This document shows, in pieces, positions 4,632 to 44,961 of a DNA stretch of 64,000 nt. The position numbers and the translations under genes are program-made. Source of the stretch: [Clostridium] ultunense DSM 10521 (GTDB taxonomy: Bacteria; Bacillota; Clostridia; Tissierellales; Tepidimicrobiaceae); the NCBI RefSeq assembly GCF_000511955.1, contig NZ_AZSU01000003.1:267487-331486 (forward strand). The letters are read 5' to 3'. Below the pieces are notes generated by a model that had not been told where the DNA came from, ran no database searches, and was given only the letters and a program-made list of their open reading frames with translations. The number at the start of each line of letters is the position of its first letter. Within the stretch, counting starts at the first letter, position 1.

Positions 4632-6611
4632 TTAGTTGTCTTTTACAATATCCTCTATTTTTATATCCATGTCTTTGTTTTCAAAGGTTTCAACTTTTTC
4701 TTTCTCTTCTTCTTCGTCTCTATCTTCTTCAATTGCCCTCATGCTCAAGCTAATTCTTTGTCCTTCCTCATCTATGTCAATAATTTTTACTGTAACCTCT
4801 TGTCCAATTTCTAATCTATCAGATGGTCTATTAACATGGTCTTTAGATATTTGAGATACATGAACTAATCCATCAACACCTTCTTCCAATCTAATAAAGG
4901 CTCCAAAATCTAAAATATTTACAACTTTCCCAGAAACTATATCTCCAACATTTCTTTTATCAATAAATATGTCCCAAGGCTTTGGTAAAATTTGTTTTAA
5001 TCCCAAAGATATCCTGTTCCTATTTTTATCAAAATCCAAAACTTGGACTTGAATTTTGTCGCCAGCGGCAACAACTTCTGACGGGTGGCCTATCCTATAC
5101 CAAGACAAATCGGAAATATGGATTAAACCATCTAAACCACCAATATCAACAAAGGCCCCAAAATCCGTCAATCTTTCTACTTTGCCGTCGATTATATTTC
5201 CAATTTCTAAACTATCCCAGAGCTTCTCTCTTTTCTTTTCTAATTTTTCTTGTTCGACTACTTTACTTGACAGTACAATTCTTCTTCGATTTTTGTCAAA
5301 ATCTATAATTCTGGCAATTAATTTTTTGCCCTTATAAGCACTCAAATCATCAACATAGGATACAGAAATTTGGGATGCAGGAATAAAACCATTAATATTC
5401 TTTATCAACACGGAAAGGCCGCCTTTAACGTCCGACAGTACTTTACATTCTATATTTTCTTTATTATCATAGGCTTTTTCAAGCTCTTCCCAATTTTTTA
5501 TAACCTCTAGTCTTTTTGTAGAAAGTACAACATTTCCCTCACCATCATCTAATCTAACCACATAAACCTCTATCTCATCTCCCTCTTTAATCAAATCCTT
5601 AGGCCTAATATCGGGGTCATTAGATAGTTCTTCTTTAGTAATAATTCCATCAGATTTATAATTGATATTTACCATAATTTCATTTTCAGTTACATAAATG
5701 ACTTTACCCTTTACAACATCTCCTCTACGGACTTTAACAAGTGTGTTTTCTATTGCTTCCATTATTTCATTATTATTAATATTATCCATTGTATTAACAA
5801 CCTCCTTAATTATCCAATCAGGTGTTGAAGCACCTGCGGTTATTCCTATTGTATTAAATTTTGTTAGCTCTTGTAAAGGCAAATCTTTAGATAATTCGAT
5901 ATGAAATACATTATTACAATATTTTTTACTTATTTCTACTAATTTATTGGTATTGGAGCTATGATAACCACCAATTACAATCATAGCTTCGACTTTTTTC
6001 GCCAATTCTTTGCAAGCACCTTGTCTTGTATTAGTAGCATTACATATGGTATTAAACATCTTAACTTCCTCACCTTTACCGACAACAATATCCGATAGTT
6101 TTTTAAATTTTTCAAATGTATTAGTAGTCTGTGAAACTAAACAAATTTTATCATAGTTAGAAAGATTATTTGCTTCCTCTTCATTATTTATTATAATTCC
6201 ATCATCATTACACCATCCGTTAATTCCAATTACCTCTGGGTGGTTTTTATCACCAATTATTACAATTTTATATCCTTTGTCGCTGTATTCTTCAACTTTT
6301 TTATGAACGGATTTTACGTAAGGACAAGTACAATCAATTAATTCTAAATTTAAATCTTCAATTTTTTTCTCAACTTTATAAGGTATGCCGTGAGACCTTA
6401 TAATAACTTTTCCGTTTTCTATAGAATCAACTTCATCTATAACCTTTAAGCCATCTTTATTTAACTTGTCCACTATCTGAGTATTATGGACTAAAGGACC
6501 TAAAGAGTAGGTGTTTACACCTCCTGAGTTTTTAATAATTTTTTCAGCGGTATTAACCGCTCGCTTGACACCAAAACAATAACCAGCATGTTCAGCAATA
6601 TAAACCTTCAC
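4632..6611 (-). CDS. ispH: IspH (HMBPP reductase) fused to ribosomal protein S1-like repeats
   Basis: Bifunctional 659-residue protein known from Clostridia. Residues 1-281 are IspH, the iron-sulfur enzyme of the last MEP-pathway step, which makes IPP and DMAPP. The cluster ligands Cys12, Cys96 and Cys190 and the substrate residues His41, His74 and His124 are present. From about 293 to 630 there are four S1 RNA-binding repeats, the last two with classic DFGAFV and DFGAFI motifs; a charged tail ends the protein. The S1 part probably helps mRNA binding on the ribosome. It is followed by a terminator and preceded by plsC and cmk, the usual clostridial order. Confidence 0.95.
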   Translation of the reverse strand: MKVYIAEHAGYCFGVKRAVNTAEKIIKNSGGVNTYSLGPLVHNTQIVDKLNKDGLKVIDEVDSIENGKVIIRSHGIPYKVEKKIEDLNLELIDCTCPYVKSVHKKVEEYSDKGYKIVIIGDKNHPEVIGINGWCNDDGIIINNEEEANNLSNYDKICLVSQTTNTFEKFKKLSDIVVGKGEEVKMFNTICNATNTRQGACKELAKKVEAMIVIGGYHSSNTNKLVEISKKYCNNVFHIELSKDLPLQELTKFNTIGITAGASTPDWIIKEVVNTMDNINNNEIMEAIENTLVKVRRGDVVKGKVIYVTENEIMVNINYKSDGIITKEELSNDPDIRPKDLIKEGDEIEVYVVRLDDGEGNVVLSTKRLEVIKNWEELEKAYDNKENIECKVLSDVKGGLSVLIKNINGFIPASQISVSYVDDLSAYKGKKLIARIIDFDKNRRRIVLSSKVVEQEKLEKKREKLWDSLEIGNIIDGKVERLTDFGAFVDIGGLDGLIHISDLSWYRIGHPSEVVAAGDKIQVQVLDFDKNRNRISLGLKQILPKPWDIFIDKRNVGDIVSGKVVNILDFGAFIRLEEGVDGLVHVSQISKDHVNRPSDRLEIGQEVTVKIIDIDEEGQRISLSMRAIEEDRDEEEEKEKVETFENKDMDIKIEDIVKDN

Positions 6612-36966: not shown

Positions 36967-38667
36967 CTATTTATTAGAATTTAATTTTTTTGACATTTCA
37001 AGCATTTCCTTTGCATGTAGTTTAGTAGTATCTGTTAGATCTACACCACCTAATAACCTTGACAGCTCGTCAATCCTTTCATTATCCTCTAATTTTCTTA
37101 CAATGGTACTAGTTTTGTCTTTAACCGTATGTTTATCGATTACAAAATGGGTGTCTGCTAGGGCAGCAATTTGTGGCAAATGGGAAATGCAAATTACTTG
37201 ATGATTGTCTGATATCATTTTTATCTTCTCTCCAACTATTTGTGCAGTTCTTCCACTAATTCCTGTATCTATTTCATCAAAGATTAAACAAGGTATATTA
37301 TCGTAATCAGCTAATATTCTTTTGAATGCTAGCATAATTCTAGACATTTCACCGCCTGATATTATTTTTGACAAAGGCTTCAAATCTTCACCTTTATTTG
37401 TGGAAATTAAGAACTCTATTCGATCCCACCCCCTCTCAGTAAAGTACTCTGTTTTGCTGAAGTACACTTTGAAAACCACATTGTCCATATTTAAATCTTT
37501 TAATTCTTTTGTAATCAATGTTTCTACTTTTTTACTTAATTTTTTTCTAAGTCTAGTCAATTTAGTGCAATAATCAGTTAAATCATTTTCCATTGATCTT
37601 ATTCTAATTTTGGCTTTTTTGATTTCCTCTTCGTTGTTCATTAGGATATCATACCTATTTTCAATTGTATCCCTATACTTTAAAATATCCTCAATGGTAT
37701 TTCCATACTTTCTTTTTAACCTATTAATAGTATCTATTCTATCTTCTAAGAGCTTCAACCTTTCCTCATCTATATCTAAACTTTCTATATAATCCATGAT
37801 ATTCCTATATAAATCCTGCAATTCGAAGCTTATATATTCTAAAACATTATTGTATTCTTCTAACGTATTGTCATAAATTTTTATATCATTCATATTAGAT
37901 ATACATTTATTAATGTTGTTAATTAAAGATATATTATTATACCCTTCATTGCCTATAATATTCACTATCTCTCCTAAACTATATCCAATCTCTTTAATAT
38001 TTGATATTTTATTGTATTCTTTTGTAATTTCATCTTCATCATATTTTAGAAGATCTGCACTATGGATTTCATCTATTTGATATTTTAATAAATCTATTTC
38101 TCGGTCCCTTTCAATAGTATCTACTGACAACTCTTTTAATCTTTTCTTTTCCCTTAATAATCCTTCATATTTTTTTCTCACATTATCAAGTAAAGATTTT
38201 AGTTCAGTACCACCAAATGTATCTATTAATTTCATGTGGTTCTCGACATTTAATAAAGATTGATGTTCATGTTGTCCATGGATATCCACCAGGTTAGAAG
38301 TAATATTATTTAGCATAGTTAATGTAACCGTTCTTCCATTAACTCTAGATACATTTCGACCATTAGTATGTATCTCTCTTGAGATTAATAAATAGTTGGA
38401 TGGGTCAATATCTATACCATAACTTTCTAATATTTTGTTTACTTTTTTTGGATTATCTAAGTAAAAAATTCCCTCTAAAATTGATCTTTCCTTTCCCGTC
38501 CTAACTAAATCCCTATTTGCTCTTTGACCTAAAATCATACCAATTCCTTCAACAATTATAGATTTGCCAGCTCCTGTTTCGCCAGTGAGCACATTAAATC
38601 CCTTTGTAAAATTAATTTTTAAGTTATCTATAATAGCAAAGTTACTAATATTTAACTCGACTATCAT
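36967..38667 (-). CDS. recN: DNA repair protein RecN
   Basis: 566-residue SMC-like ATPase that acts early in double-strand break repair. Walker A is GETGAGKS at 29-36; the long middle part is coiled coil; the C-terminal part has ISGGEMSRIMLAFK (signature) and LIFDEIDTGISG (Walker B). It follows argR in the typical order recN-argR-tlyA of Firmicutes. Confidence 0.96.
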   Translation of the reverse strand: MIVELNISNFAIIDNLKINFTKGFNVLTGETGAGKSIIVEGIGMILGQRANRDLVRTGKERSILEGIFYLDNPKKVNKILESYGIDIDPSNYLLISREIHTNGRNVSRVNGRTVTLTMLNNITSNLVDIHGQHEHQSLLNVENHMKLIDTFGGTELKSLLDNVRKKYEGLLREKKRLKELSVDTIERDREIDLLKYQIDEIHSADLLKYDEDEITKEYNKISNIKEIGYSLGEIVNIIGNEGYNNISLINNINKCISNMNDIKIYDNTLEEYNNVLEYISFELQDLYRNIMDYIESLDIDEERLKLLEDRIDTINRLKRKYGNTIEDILKYRDTIENRYDILMNNEEEIKKAKIRIRSMENDLTDYCTKLTRLRKKLSKKVETLITKELKDLNMDNVVFKVYFSKTEYFTERGWDRIEFLISTNKGEDLKPLSKIISGGEMSRIMLAFKRILADYDNIPCLIFDEIDTGISGRTAQIVGEKIKMISDNHQVICISHLPQIAALADTHFVIDKHTVKDKTSTIVRKLEDNERIDELSRLLGGVDLTDTTKLHAKEMLEMSKKLNSNK

Positions 38668-38682
38668 ACCTATACCCCCAGA

Positions 38683-39135
38683 TTATTTGAGTAAATTTTG
38701 GAGATTTTCCAATAGAGAGTTTATCATATTCATCTTTTCCATAGCAATAAAAATAGTGTCATATCCGGCAATAGTCCCAACTATACCATTAAATTTAAGA
38801 TTGTCCACAGTGGAAGCACAAATACGGGCTGCACCAGGTAAAGTCTTTATTACTATAATATTTTCAGCTCTTTCAATGCTAAGTACTGAACTTTTGAAAA
38901 TTCTAATCAACCGTTCACTTGTTCCCTCATATTGATTATCTATAGTAGCATATTTATATTTTTTATTAGTAGTTAAAACTTTTACCAGTCTTAACTCTTT
39001 TATATCTCTAGATATTGTAGCTTGGGTTATTTGGATACCTTTTTTCAATAAATGATCTGCTAGTTCTTCTTGAGTTTCTATTTCATGATTTTCGATTAGA
39101 TCCAAAATTATACTCTGTCTAGTATATTTTCTCAT
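38683..39135 (-). CDS. argR: Arginine repressor ArgR
   Basis: 150-residue hexameric regulator that represses arginine synthesis and may activate arginine breakdown when arginine is high. The N-terminal winged helix (about 1-70) includes QATISRDIKELRLVK, and the C-terminal arginine-binding domain has GTIAGYDTIFIA near its end. The argR gene is 15 bp upstream of recN and part of the tlyA-argR-recN group; I see no clear ARG boxes close by. Confidence 0.95.
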   Translation of the reverse strand: MRKYTRQSIILDLIENHEIETQEELADHLLKKGIQITQATISRDIKELRLVKVLTTNKKYKYATIDNQYEGTSERLIRIFKSSVLSIERAENIIVIKTLPGAARICASTVDNLKFNGIVGTIAGYDTIFIAMEKMNMINSLLENLQNLLK

Positions 39136-39150
39136 CTTTTCCTCCCTTTT

Positions 39151-39951
39151 TTAGTATAAGCTTCGGTGAGCATCTTCTATAGTTTCTAATACTTTTTCTT
39201 CATTTATTATTTTATTTCCACCCTTATTTATATAAGATAAAAACTCAATATTCCCAGTACCACCTGTAATAGGTGAAAATCCTAAGTCTACCATATTTAA
39301 ATCGATGGTATTACAAAAGTCAACCATATTCTCTATTACTTCTTTATGTATCATTTTATCCTTAACTAAACCCTTTTTACCTACATTATTCCTTCCAGCT
39401 TCAAATTGAGGCTTTATTAATGCCATAATATATCCCTCGGAATTTAGCAATTCCTTTGCTACAGGAAGAACCAGTTTTAAAGAGATAAAAGACACATCTA
39501 TGGATATGAAATCAACTAATTCTCCAATATCTTCTTTTGTTACATACCTAATATTAGTCCGCTCTTTAACTATAACTCTAGGATCATTTCTAAGATTCCA
39601 GTCTAATTGTCCATAGCCTACATCTATGGCAAATACTTTCTTTGCTCCATTTTTGAGCATACAATCAGTAAAGCCTCCAGTAGAAGCTCCAATATCTATT
39701 ACGACTTTTCCTTCTAAGTCTATATTAAAAATATCTATTGCTTTTTCAAGTTTTAACCCTCCCCTACTGACATAATGGATAGGATCATCTTTAATTATTA
39801 TATCGTTATCTATATTGATCTTTTCCCCTGGTTTATCGATTCTTCTACTCCCAACAAAAACTACTCCTTCCATAATAATTCTTCTAGCCTTTTCTCTAGA
39901 ATCTACCAATCCCTTTTCAAACAATAACACATCAGCTCTTTTTTTTTTCAT
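39151..39951 (-). CDS. tlyA: TlyA family rRNA methyltransferase / hemolysin
   Basis: 266 residues. An S4 RNA-binding domain (about 4-60, ADVLLFEKGLVDSREKARR) is joined to a SAM methyltransferase domain with VVIDIGASTGGFTDCML and VYAIDVGYGQ-like KVFAIDVGYGQLDW. TlyA enzymes 2'-O-methylate rRNA (16S C1409 and/or 23S C1920 in mycobacteria). The gene is 16 bp after oapA. In many relatives dxs lies just before tlyA; here it does not. Confidence 0.93.
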   Translation of the reverse strand: MKKKRADVLLFEKGLVDSREKARRIIMEGVVFVGSRRIDKPGEKINIDNDIIIKDDPIHYVSRGGLKLEKAIDIFNIDLEGKVVIDIGASTGGFTDCMLKNGAKKVFAIDVGYGQLDWNLRNDPRVIVKERTNIRYVTKEDIGELVDFISIDVSFISLKLVLPVAKELLNSEGYIMALIKPQFEAGRNNVGKKGLVKDKMIHKEVIENMVDFCNTIDLNMVDLGFSPITGGTGNIEFLSYINKGGNKIINEEKVLETIEDAHRSLY

Positions 39952-39967
39952 ATAATCCTCCTATTTA

Positions 39968-40591
39968 TCAGTCCAATCTATTATTCTGTCTATTATTTTT
40001 ATTATTCTTCTTCTTTTCAGGCAATAGATCTATTCCCAACTTATTATTTATAAAATTAAAAACCACGGCAGTCTTAAGAATAATCTTTTCAGAATATAGT
40101 ATGGCAATAGATTTGCCGAAGGCTTTACCTCCAACAGTTAATGATGCTACTAAGGAAGTAACTATTATACTTAATAAAATTCCATTTTTTATATCATATA
40201 TATCCATTAATTTGTAAATAATAGTAGTTCCAACGGCTCCACTAACAATTCCGCTAATATCTCCAATTACATCGTTACAAAAATTAGATACTTGTCCTGC
40301 GTTTCTAACTAATTTTATGGCATATCTAGCTTCTTCTACTTTATTAGCTGCCATAGCGTGGAAAGGTTTTTCTTCAGCAGTTGTAACAGCAATGCCTATT
40401 ATATCAAAAAATATTCCTATTAATATTATGATGATTAATATAATGAATGCTAAAAAAATATCTAAGTTCTTTACTAATCCTTCTGTAACTATACTAAAAA
40501 TCATAGCCATAATAAAGGTCCAAAGGGTTACCATAACTATCCATTTTAAATTATATTTATCTGAAAAATTTATATCATCTTTCTTGCCCAT
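39968..40591 (-). CDS. oapA: OapA-like OLE RNA-associated membrane protein
   Basis: 207 residues with hydrophobic segments near 18-37, 43-70, and about 113-160, and a basic C-terminus rich in Lys and Asn. Between them lies AVTTAEEKPFHAMAANK, a motif shared with CorB/CNNM-type magnesium transport domains, and FCNDVIGDI. OapA is known to bind OLE RNA at the membrane. I base the call on the position right after the OLE RNA gene, the topology and the motif; the RNA call itself supports it. It lies before tlyA. Confidence 0.8.
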   Translation of the reverse strand: MGKKDDINFSDKYNLKWIVMVTLWTFIMAMIFSIVTEGLVKNLDIFLAFIILIIIILIGIFFDIIGIAVTTAEEKPFHAMAANKVEEARYAIKLVRNAGQVSNFCNDVIGDISGIVSGAVGTTIIYKLMDIYDIKNGILLSIIVTSLVASLTVGGKAFGKSIAILYSEKIILKTAVVFNFINNKLGIDLLPEKKKNNKNNRQNNRLD

Positions 40592-40625
40592 TCTATATTG
40601 GTTCCTCCATTAAAAATTATTATGT

Positions 40626-40658
40626 AAAAAGCTGATAGCATCATGCTATCAGCTTTTT
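40626..40658 (-). terminator. Terminator at the 3' end of OLE RNA
   Basis: A 15-bp stem (AAAAAGCTGATAGCA and complement) with a 3-base loop, then a T run on the minus strand (GCTTTTTACAT). It ends the RNA about 35 bp before the oapA ATG, so oapA needs read-through or another promoter. Confidence 0.9.
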
Positions 40659-41225
40659 AAAGTGGTAGTATATTGAGTAAATCTTACGGCTTAAGGTCCA
40701 GTAGGATTTCCCTGAAAGAAACTGTATGTCGCCATAACAGCGGTTTCCCTTTAATTCTATCACTACTACGTCGCCATGAGCAGAACTGGATTACCACTTA
40801 GTCCGCACTGTAATCCCCAATATACCTCTTCCATTAGAACAGTCTAGGAGTTTTCCTCTGCAACCAGTCTAATCCTTAGCCTCTTTTGCAATATTGGTTT
40901 CGATAACAAAACCTTCCTTGCTTGGGCCCTAGGCAAGAAAAGTCGAACTTATCATCCGCCAACATCACTCAAGGCAGGCTACTCTGTATGTTTGTATCAT
41001 ATTTATACATACAGGTTTATCTTACCAAAAGGTAAGTCTCCACGAAAGCAGGGTCAACGCCTGCATGCCATTGCAGATCGCCCCATCTTTCTTACTCCCA
41101 GCATCAACCCTCGACTGGGCGTCGCGAGCCGAAACAAGGAACTTCATCGATATGCCCTTCGACGGATTTTTAGCCCCGCCCTCGAGATTAGCTGTGTTGA
41201 CTAGAATACTGTACCACTCTATTAA
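40626..41225 (-). ncRNA. ole: OLE (ornate, large, extremophilic) RNA
   Basis: About 600 bases with much higher GC than the surroundings and no sensible ORF on either strand. Minus-strand segments fit a folded RNA: GAGGGCGGGGCTAAAAATCC near the 5' end, GCATGCAGG and CGGATG further on, and many short complementary stretches such as CCTGTATGT with ACATACAG. The place between ispA and oapA, in the tlyA/argR/recN and xse/nusB neighbourhood, is that described for OLE RNA, and the length is right (about 600). Ends are approximate; the 5' end may start just after ispA. Confidence 0.82.
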
Positions 41226-41269
41226 GTCTAATTAATTATAGCATAATATCTATAATTATTCAATGATTT

Positions 41270-42139
41270 TTAATAGTCCCTATGCATTAAATGATATGTT
41301 AATTTTTTAAAAAATTCTACATCCTTGTTTTCATAATAGTCCAATACATCTATAGCTTTTTTACTTAACTCATCAACTTTATCCTTTGCCACGTCTATAT
41401 TATTAAAACTTAGATAGGTAACCTTATTAATTGATTTATCCTCATTCACATCTAAAATATCATCTCTTATTTGGTATGCTAATCCAAGATATAACCCAAA
41501 TCGTCTCATTCTTTCTATATCTTCTTTACAGCCTCCTCCCAATATAGCACCAGCAACTAAAGATGCTTGTATAAGAGCTGCAGTTTTAGATTTATACATA
41601 AATAGTAGTTTATCTTCATCCATAGCAATTTCATTAGATAGTAAATCCACCACCTGACCACCGATCATACCATAAATTCCTGAATATTTACCTATTTCAT
41701 CAATTGCCCAGATATTTCTTTTATAATCTTCAATAGTTTTTGAGTTTTTTAAAGTAAAATCTACCATGATTTCAAAGGCTAAGTTTAACAACCCATCTCC
41801 AGATAAGACAGCAATAGCTTCTCCATAAACTTTATGGTTTGTCAATCTCCCCCTTCTAAAATCATCGTCATCCATGGAAGGTAAATCATCATGAATTAAA
41901 GAATAGGTATGTATCATTTCTATTGCCATTGCAAATGGAATTGACCTTTTATGCTCTCCTCCAAGCATTTCGCAACTCTTTAGCAATAGAATAGGTCTTA
42001 ATCTTTTTCCTCCTGTAAATAGGCTATAATTGATGGATTCAAATATTTTTTTCTGATATCCAATTTTATTTTTTAGCAAATTAGATAAATTTTTATCTAT
42101 TATATCCTTAGTATACTCCAACTCTTCATTTATCAACAT
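41270..42139 (-). CDS. ispA: Polyprenyl synthetase (geranyl/farnesyl diphosphate synthase)
   Basis: 289-residue all-helical prenyltransferase that joins IPP to allylic diphosphates to make C10-C15 (or longer) isoprenoids. The first aspartate-rich motif is in HDDLPSMDDDDFRRG, and the second in YQIRDDILD. In clostridia it forms a cluster with xseA and xseB. OLE RNA begins right after its stop. Together with ispH it feeds undecaprenyl and quinone-type lipids. Confidence 0.94.
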   Translation of the reverse strand: MLINEELEYTKDIIDKNLSNLLKNKIGYQKKIFESINYSLFTGGKRLRPILLLKSCEMLGGEHKRSIPFAMAIEMIHTYSLIHDDLPSMDDDDFRRGRLTNHKVYGEAIAVLSGDGLLNLAFEIMVDFTLKNSKTIEDYKRNIWAIDEIGKYSGIYGMIGGQVVDLLSNEIAMDEDKLLFMYKSKTAALIQASLVAGAILGGGCKEDIERMRRFGLYLGLAYQIRDDILDVNEDKSINKVTYLSFNNIDVAKDKVDELSKKAIDVLDYYENKDVEFFKKLTYHLMHRDY

Positions 42140-43595: not shown

Positions 43596-44558
43596 TCACC
43601 TACTAGAAAATTTTTCTTTTGCCAAATATGCTACACCAACTCCATTATCTGTAGAAAGTGGAATTTTGGCAAAATAAGGCCTAATGTTATTATCACTAAG
43701 CTTATTATATAAGGAACCTCTTATATGCTCATTTGCAGAAACACCACCAGTAATTAAAATATCATCTAATTTATATTCAATATGCCTATTAATAATTATA
43801 TTATATAATAATATCGATATAGTATTAAACAATGTGGCGAATATATCTTCTATTGCATAAGAAGAGTCCTTTATTAAATTTTTAAAATAGTTCTCTAAAC
43901 CAGAGATATTAAACCAAGTTTTGTCCTTTAAACTAATAGGTATATTTAAATTTAATACATTTCCCCTTTGAGAAATTTTATCCATTTCCATACCACAGGG
44001 AAAAGGCAAGCCTAATTCTACCCCAATTCTATCGATTAGCTGCCCTAAGCTTAAATCTAAAGTTCCACCTATAATGTCTATAGACATTTGGTTTTTCTTA
44101 TTACTGACTAATAATAATTCTGTAGTCCCACCAGAAATATGAAGGCTTAAAAATTTATCACAATCTTTAAGCTGACTCCCCATAATCCCAGCGCCAATAT
44201 GTCCTTCCTGATGACTATATTCACTATATTTAGTCCCCAATATTTTAGATAAAATAAAAGCCTGTCCTTTTCCAACTACAAAAACAGGCATATATGAATC
44301 CTCGACACTCCTAGGTTTGTTACTACAAGCAATAGTATCCACTTTAGTAATATCTATCTCCATCATCATCTTTTCAATCAGCAAAGGTAAATTATTTATA
44401 TGCTGAAAAACCGCTTCCTGTTGTCTTAGACCTTTCTGTCCTTTCTTTACCTCTAAAACTTTTCTCAAGTCTAAGACAATATTATCTTCATTATCAATTA
44501 TAGCTAAGGAAGTAGTATATGCAGATGTATCTATTCCAATAAAGTATCTGTTACTCAT
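43596..44558 (-). CDS. Kae1/TsaD-like domain protein (O-sialoglycoprotein endopeptidase-like)
   Basis: 320-residue member of the ASKHA/TsaD fold, known in clostridia as a Kae1-like paralogue. The N-terminal [12 protein letters not shown] and C-terminal [14 protein letters not shown] are typical of this fold; the metal-binding pair is in SHQEGHIG. True TsaD, required for t6A tRNA synthesis, is usually longer, so this is a second family member of unknown role. I chose ATG at 44558 (reading MSNRYF), with GAAGGGAT 5 bases before it; it overlaps nusB by 8 bp. Confidence 0.82.
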
Positions 44559-44961
44559 TATTATCCCTTCTTCTAACAAATCCACCTAATACTCCATTGA
44601 TAAACTTCGAAGATTCATCAGTGCTATATGTTTTTGCAACCTCTATAGCTTCATTAATGGAAACTTCCACTGGTATATCCTCTCTATAAACTATTTCATA
44701 TATAGCTATTCTTAGGATACATAAATCTACCCTTGCTAATCTATGTAATTCCCATCCTTCTATATTATCCTTAATATGATCATCTATTTCATCTAAATTC
44801 TTGATTATTGTATGTATCGCATCTTCAATATATTCCTTTTCACTTAAATTAAATTTATTATTATTAAAAAACATATCTATAATGTTGTTAGAATAATCTG
44901 AATTTATTTCCATTTGATATAACAGCTTCATTGTAGATTCCCTTGCATATCTTCTACCCAT
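44551..44961 (-). CDS. nusB: Transcription antitermination factor NusB
   Basis: 136-residue RNA-binding protein of the rRNA antitermination complex. [17 protein letters not shown] at the start and [18 protein letters not shown] are signatures, and the end INGVLGG is conserved. It overlaps the TsaD-like gene by 8 bp and follows the asp23-amaP-DUF2273 genes. Confidence 0.95.

Follow-up and report, generated by a model that had tools for sequence, protein, structure and literature searches.

A full-length OLE RNA gene kept in a Tissierellales genome that appears to have lost dxs and dxr

The window (the whole stretch of 64,000 nucleotides of [Clostridium] ultunense DSM 10521 that was analysed) carries what is very probably a full-length OLE RNA gene with transcription signals of its own, in a genome where dxs is absent from the OLE locus since both dxs and dxr have been lost and where OLE has been kept without needing them (probability about 0.93). 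To our knowledge, OLE, a large membrane-associated bacterial RNA, is among the largest conserved ones without known biochemical function. By sequence and structure the feature in the window is an ordinary, previously undescribed member of this known class.

When the window was compared with Rfam by cmscan, OLE (RF01071) was the sole match, on the minus strand from 41233 to 40646, with 516.7 bits (gathering score, 50), an E-value of 1.2e-148 and coverage of model positions 1-616, i.e. all 616 positions; extended to the whole genome, the search returned one copy. OLE RNA had been proposed in a first-pass annotation of the DNA, as a GC-rich, non-coding block of about 600 bases at 40626-41225, and the match confirmed this identity and showed those coordinates to be off by no more than about 20 bases at either end. 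The block is indeed GC-rich (G+C, 44.0% against 30.4% for the window) and lies in a non-coding gap (40592-41269) between ispA and oapA, which are likewise on the minus strand (Table 1). One stem is shortened, with 3 nt replacing 31 model positions near model 205-235.

Table 1. Features of the OLE locus and a retained MEP-pathway gene in the window
Feature	Position	Strand	Basis
OLE RNA gene (RF01071), full length, 588 nt	40646..41233	-	Rfam cmscan and covariation in relatives
Probable OLE promoter; TTGAAT, 17 bases, extended -10 TATGCTATAAT (41235-41245)	41235..41263	-	Sequence
Intrinsic terminator, OLE 3' end; stem GCUGAUAGC/GCUAUCAGC, then U run	40625..40654	-	Sequence
oapA, OLE membrane protein partner, 207 aa, basic C-terminus	39968..40591	-	Homology and position
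oapA-tlyA junction, 16 bases, dxs position in relatives	39952..39967	-	Locus comparison
ispA, farnesyl diphosphate synthase, upstream neighbour	41270..42139	-	NF045485, above cut-off
tlyA, downstream neighbour	39151..39951	-	TIGR00478, above cut-off
argR	38683..39135	-	TIGR01529, above cut-off
recN	36967..38667	-	TIGR00634, above cut-off
ispH-ribosomal protein S1 fusion gene; MEP-pathway enzyme still present	4632..6611	-	NF000907, 810 bits, above cut-off

The predicted OLE promoter matches the consensus at 10 of 12 positions and carries the additional TG. Of 102 OLE genes whose 5' end is intact, 78 have the motif TGNTAYAAT upstream; the rate among 100-base stretches drawn at random from the same loci is 1.1%. 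At the 3' end, the strong terminator noted in the first-pass annotation was recovered as the palindrome AGCTGATAGC-ATCAT-GCTATCAGCT (40630-40654), followed on the minus strand by a T run; a consensus scanner did not list it. The stem GCUGAUAGC/GCUAUCAGC is shared by 40 of 47 loci that come from the order or from similar metagenome-assembled genomes (1 of 55 elsewhere), and its sequence is more constant across the order than termination alone should need. From the conserved upstream motif and the conserved 3' stem, OLE here is probably a separate transcription unit, whereas the OLE cluster of Halalkalibacterium halodurans has been described as polycistronic (PMC12265935). With its conserved stand-alone promoter and terminator, the order would be handy for studying OLE separately from the surrounding operon.

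The Rfam consensus structure, which is not derived from these sequences, was laid on the window OLE and on its alignment with relatives. In the window OLE, 147 pairs were placed, 138 of them standard. The alignment used for covariation consisted of 15 sequences, namely the window OLE and 14 relatives without Dxr; 91.9% of its paired cells could pair, against 39-46% when the partner strand was slid by 1 to 3 columns. Changes on both sides occurred in 63 of the 147 pairs (shuffled alignments, 40.0 ± 3.1; 0 of 500 as high), and the OLE fold is therefore, as judged by covariation, under selection in genomes without Dxr.

That the block could belong to a different class of large structured RNA, or be an OLE relic without function, is thus most improbable: a single Rfam family was matched at an E-value of 1e-148, a model score that refutes this explanation, the helices are held by covariation, and promoter and terminator are conserved. 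Hardly any weight can be given either to the notion that OLE is split into two genes in the closest congeners (Cult1 and Cult2), with the window copy as the unsplit form. Two pieces do occur at distant places in one of these genomes (G237) and on two contigs in the other (G236), and the piece scores sum to a full-length score, but the pieces reach contig ends or an N run and have about 63 bases in common, as at an assembly break, and the split was rejected as such. Contigs also end within OLE at five other loci (L011, L012, L017, L076 and L078), and in draft genomes OLE may look split or truncated (L005, L006, L123, L125, L011, L012, L076 and L078). We infer that conserved OLE stretches behave in assembly as between-species repeats and cause these contig breaks.

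The absence of dxs from the locus, also claimed in the first-pass annotation, was borne out by the short oapA-tlyA junction. In relatives, for example at loci L019, L020, L025 and L030, a gene of about 630 aa lies between oapA and tlyA, and at L020 and L030 it was named dxs by NCBIfam (877 and 959 bits). Relocation of dxs, which that annotation had suggested, was rejected: a genome-wide search for Dxs returned transketolase and PDH-like matches only, with 226 bits at best against a cut-off of 466, and the two best-scoring pairs (226 and 208 bits) were split transketolases in NCBIfam. Dxr was not found in a search of the whole genome either; the order frr, uppS, cdsA, rseP and ispG is intact, and in comparison with a Dxr-bearing relative dxr is gone from between cdsA and rseP. 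Because no Dxs was found genome-wide in an assembly rated 100% complete, and Dxr is also absent, dxs appears to have been lost together with dxr, and not moved. A DXP synthase persisting elsewhere in the genome, unassembled, diverged or split, for example as a two-gene transketolase pair, would explain why IspD, IspE, IspF, IspG and IspH, which require MEP from some source, have all been kept, and the partial scores of the two transketolase pairs point the same way. We regard this as unlikely, since the assembly is rated complete, both pairs score highest as transketolase, dxs and dxr are each absent from otherwise intact operons, and, among 27 genomes compared, oapA adjoins tlyA in 16 of 16 without Dxr (a dxs-sized gap separates them in 9 of 11 with Dxr).

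Dxs was searched for genome-wide in this genome, and Dxr across 249 genomes of the order. OLE was present in 71 of the 249; by cross-reading of the OLE and Dxr lists, 30 genomes had both and 41 of the 71 had OLE without a Dxr match (raw counts with kinship ignored; one of the 41, G035, is only 68% complete). Among 15 OLE sequences, those from genomes without Dxr had a mean identity of 82.7% and those from Dxr-bearing genomes one of 82.9%, and of the 255 columns invariant in both groups 254 had the identical base, so that the constraint on OLE appears unrelaxed where Dxr has been lost. The sequence comparisons thus show OLE and OapA persisting under full constraint without Dxs in this genome and without Dxr in many. 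Isoprenoid synthesis is one process hinted at by the neighbours of OLE genes, dxs included (PMC10898510, PMC12265935), and a clade that has lost both genes but retains OLE and OapA unimpaired, dxs and dxr being the genes lost, puts this neighbourhood clue to a natural test: since the two enzymes were lost while OLE was kept, selection on OLE would need neither, which argues that Dxs and Dxr are unnecessary for whatever OLE does. The lineage represents a natural uncoupling of OLE from MEP-pathway entry, a link drawn tentatively in the OLE literature.

We would give a little less than even odds to a broader proposal, in which the function of OLE is independent of the MEP-entry enzymes, its neighbourhood reflects shared expression or location rather than a common pathway, and in these lineages IspD-IspH may draw on MEP from a non-canonical source. 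OLE may also be tied to later isoprenoid steps, e.g. through the still-adjacent IspA. In the order as a whole, Dxr was matched in 58 and IspH in 236 of the 249 genomes, a difference suggesting that MEP has another source. One missing step has a candidate in DXR-II, an alternative DXP reductoisomerase reported in Finegoldia and Anaerococcus (PMC3847144). The genome also holds an operon for mevalonate kinase, diphosphomevalonate decarboxylase and phosphomevalonate kinase (genome C1, L091:8912-13316), preceded by a gene for a TctA-family permease, an arrangement that possibly serves mevalonate uptake; mevalonate kinase was above the cut-off in 8 of the 41 Dxr-less OLE genomes. Full replacement by the mevalonate pathway found no support, neither HMG-CoA synthase nor HMG-CoA reductase having been found in the genome and the MEP enzymes D to H having been kept. 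A literature search on how Tissierella-type bacteria make isoprenoids yielded no helpful information.

The partner protein proposed in the first-pass annotation is likewise supported. The oapA gene starts about 35 bases past the OLE terminator, and its product has 39-90% identity to proteins encoded directly 3' of OLE in other Bacillota (fetched loci); because such homologues adjoin OLE in nearly every fetched locus with enough contig, the 207 aa membrane protein is assigned by homology and position as OapA. Of the description of this protein as a membrane protein with a CNNM-like motif, the membrane character stands (hydrophobic segments and a basic tail), while the CNNM match is below the cut-off (PF01595, 24.3 bits against 28.4). 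Genes for the other partners, whose presence had been put forward as a check, were found in part. An OapC-type (YbxF) protein of 80 aa, of the L7Ae family, is encoded at the ybxF position, flanked by rpoC and rpsL, and scores below the NCBIfam equivalog cut-offs. A 117 aa open reading frame with KOW-like sequence that occupies the ybzG position, flanked by adk and infA, is likely OapB (YbzG) from position and sequence; no NCBIfam family model matched it.

By analogy with Halalkalibacterium halodurans, OLE RNA would be transcribed from a sigma-A type promoter of its own and end at the terminator, would form a dimer, and would be tethered to the membrane by OapA, forming a ribonucleoprotein that aids the cell under stress from cold, alcohol or magnesium excess. 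The locus resembles that of the H. halodurans OLE-OapA-OapB-OapC complex in the full-length match, in ispA upstream and in oapA directly 3', followed by tlyA, argR and recN, and OapC and likely OapB are encoded in this genome as well. It differs in having dxs neither at the locus nor in the genome, in its one short stem, and in OLE carrying no CCUCCU anti-Shine-Dalgarno mimic (P6, bS21 site), a motif found in 0 of 47 OLE loci that belong to the order or to similar metagenome-assembled genomes; the bS21-bound P6 site with this mimic was described for H. halodurans and is not a family-defining feature. The OLE of C. acetobutylicum, seen as a dimer by cryo-EM (PMC12286853), belongs to the same family, and its resolved 5' domain is highly conserved here. 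The shortened stem, in the P7-P8 region, recalls variant 1 of the two OLE variants described from the TANB77 and RF39 clades (PMC11332333); unlike in variants 1 and 2, the other stems, including the P12-P13 region, are present, so the window OLE counts as full length.

The order of the locus is ispA, OLE, oapA, tlyA, argR and recN, and the family models agree with the neighbours named in the first-pass annotation (ispA, tlyA, argR and recN). A putative NAD-kinase-like gene that two other loci (L026 and L080) carry between tlyA and argR is absent from the window (39136-39150). Between nusB and xseA the window encodes a TsaD-like protein (43596-44585) that scores under the TsaD equivalog cut-offs, and that also occurs in relatives from several families.
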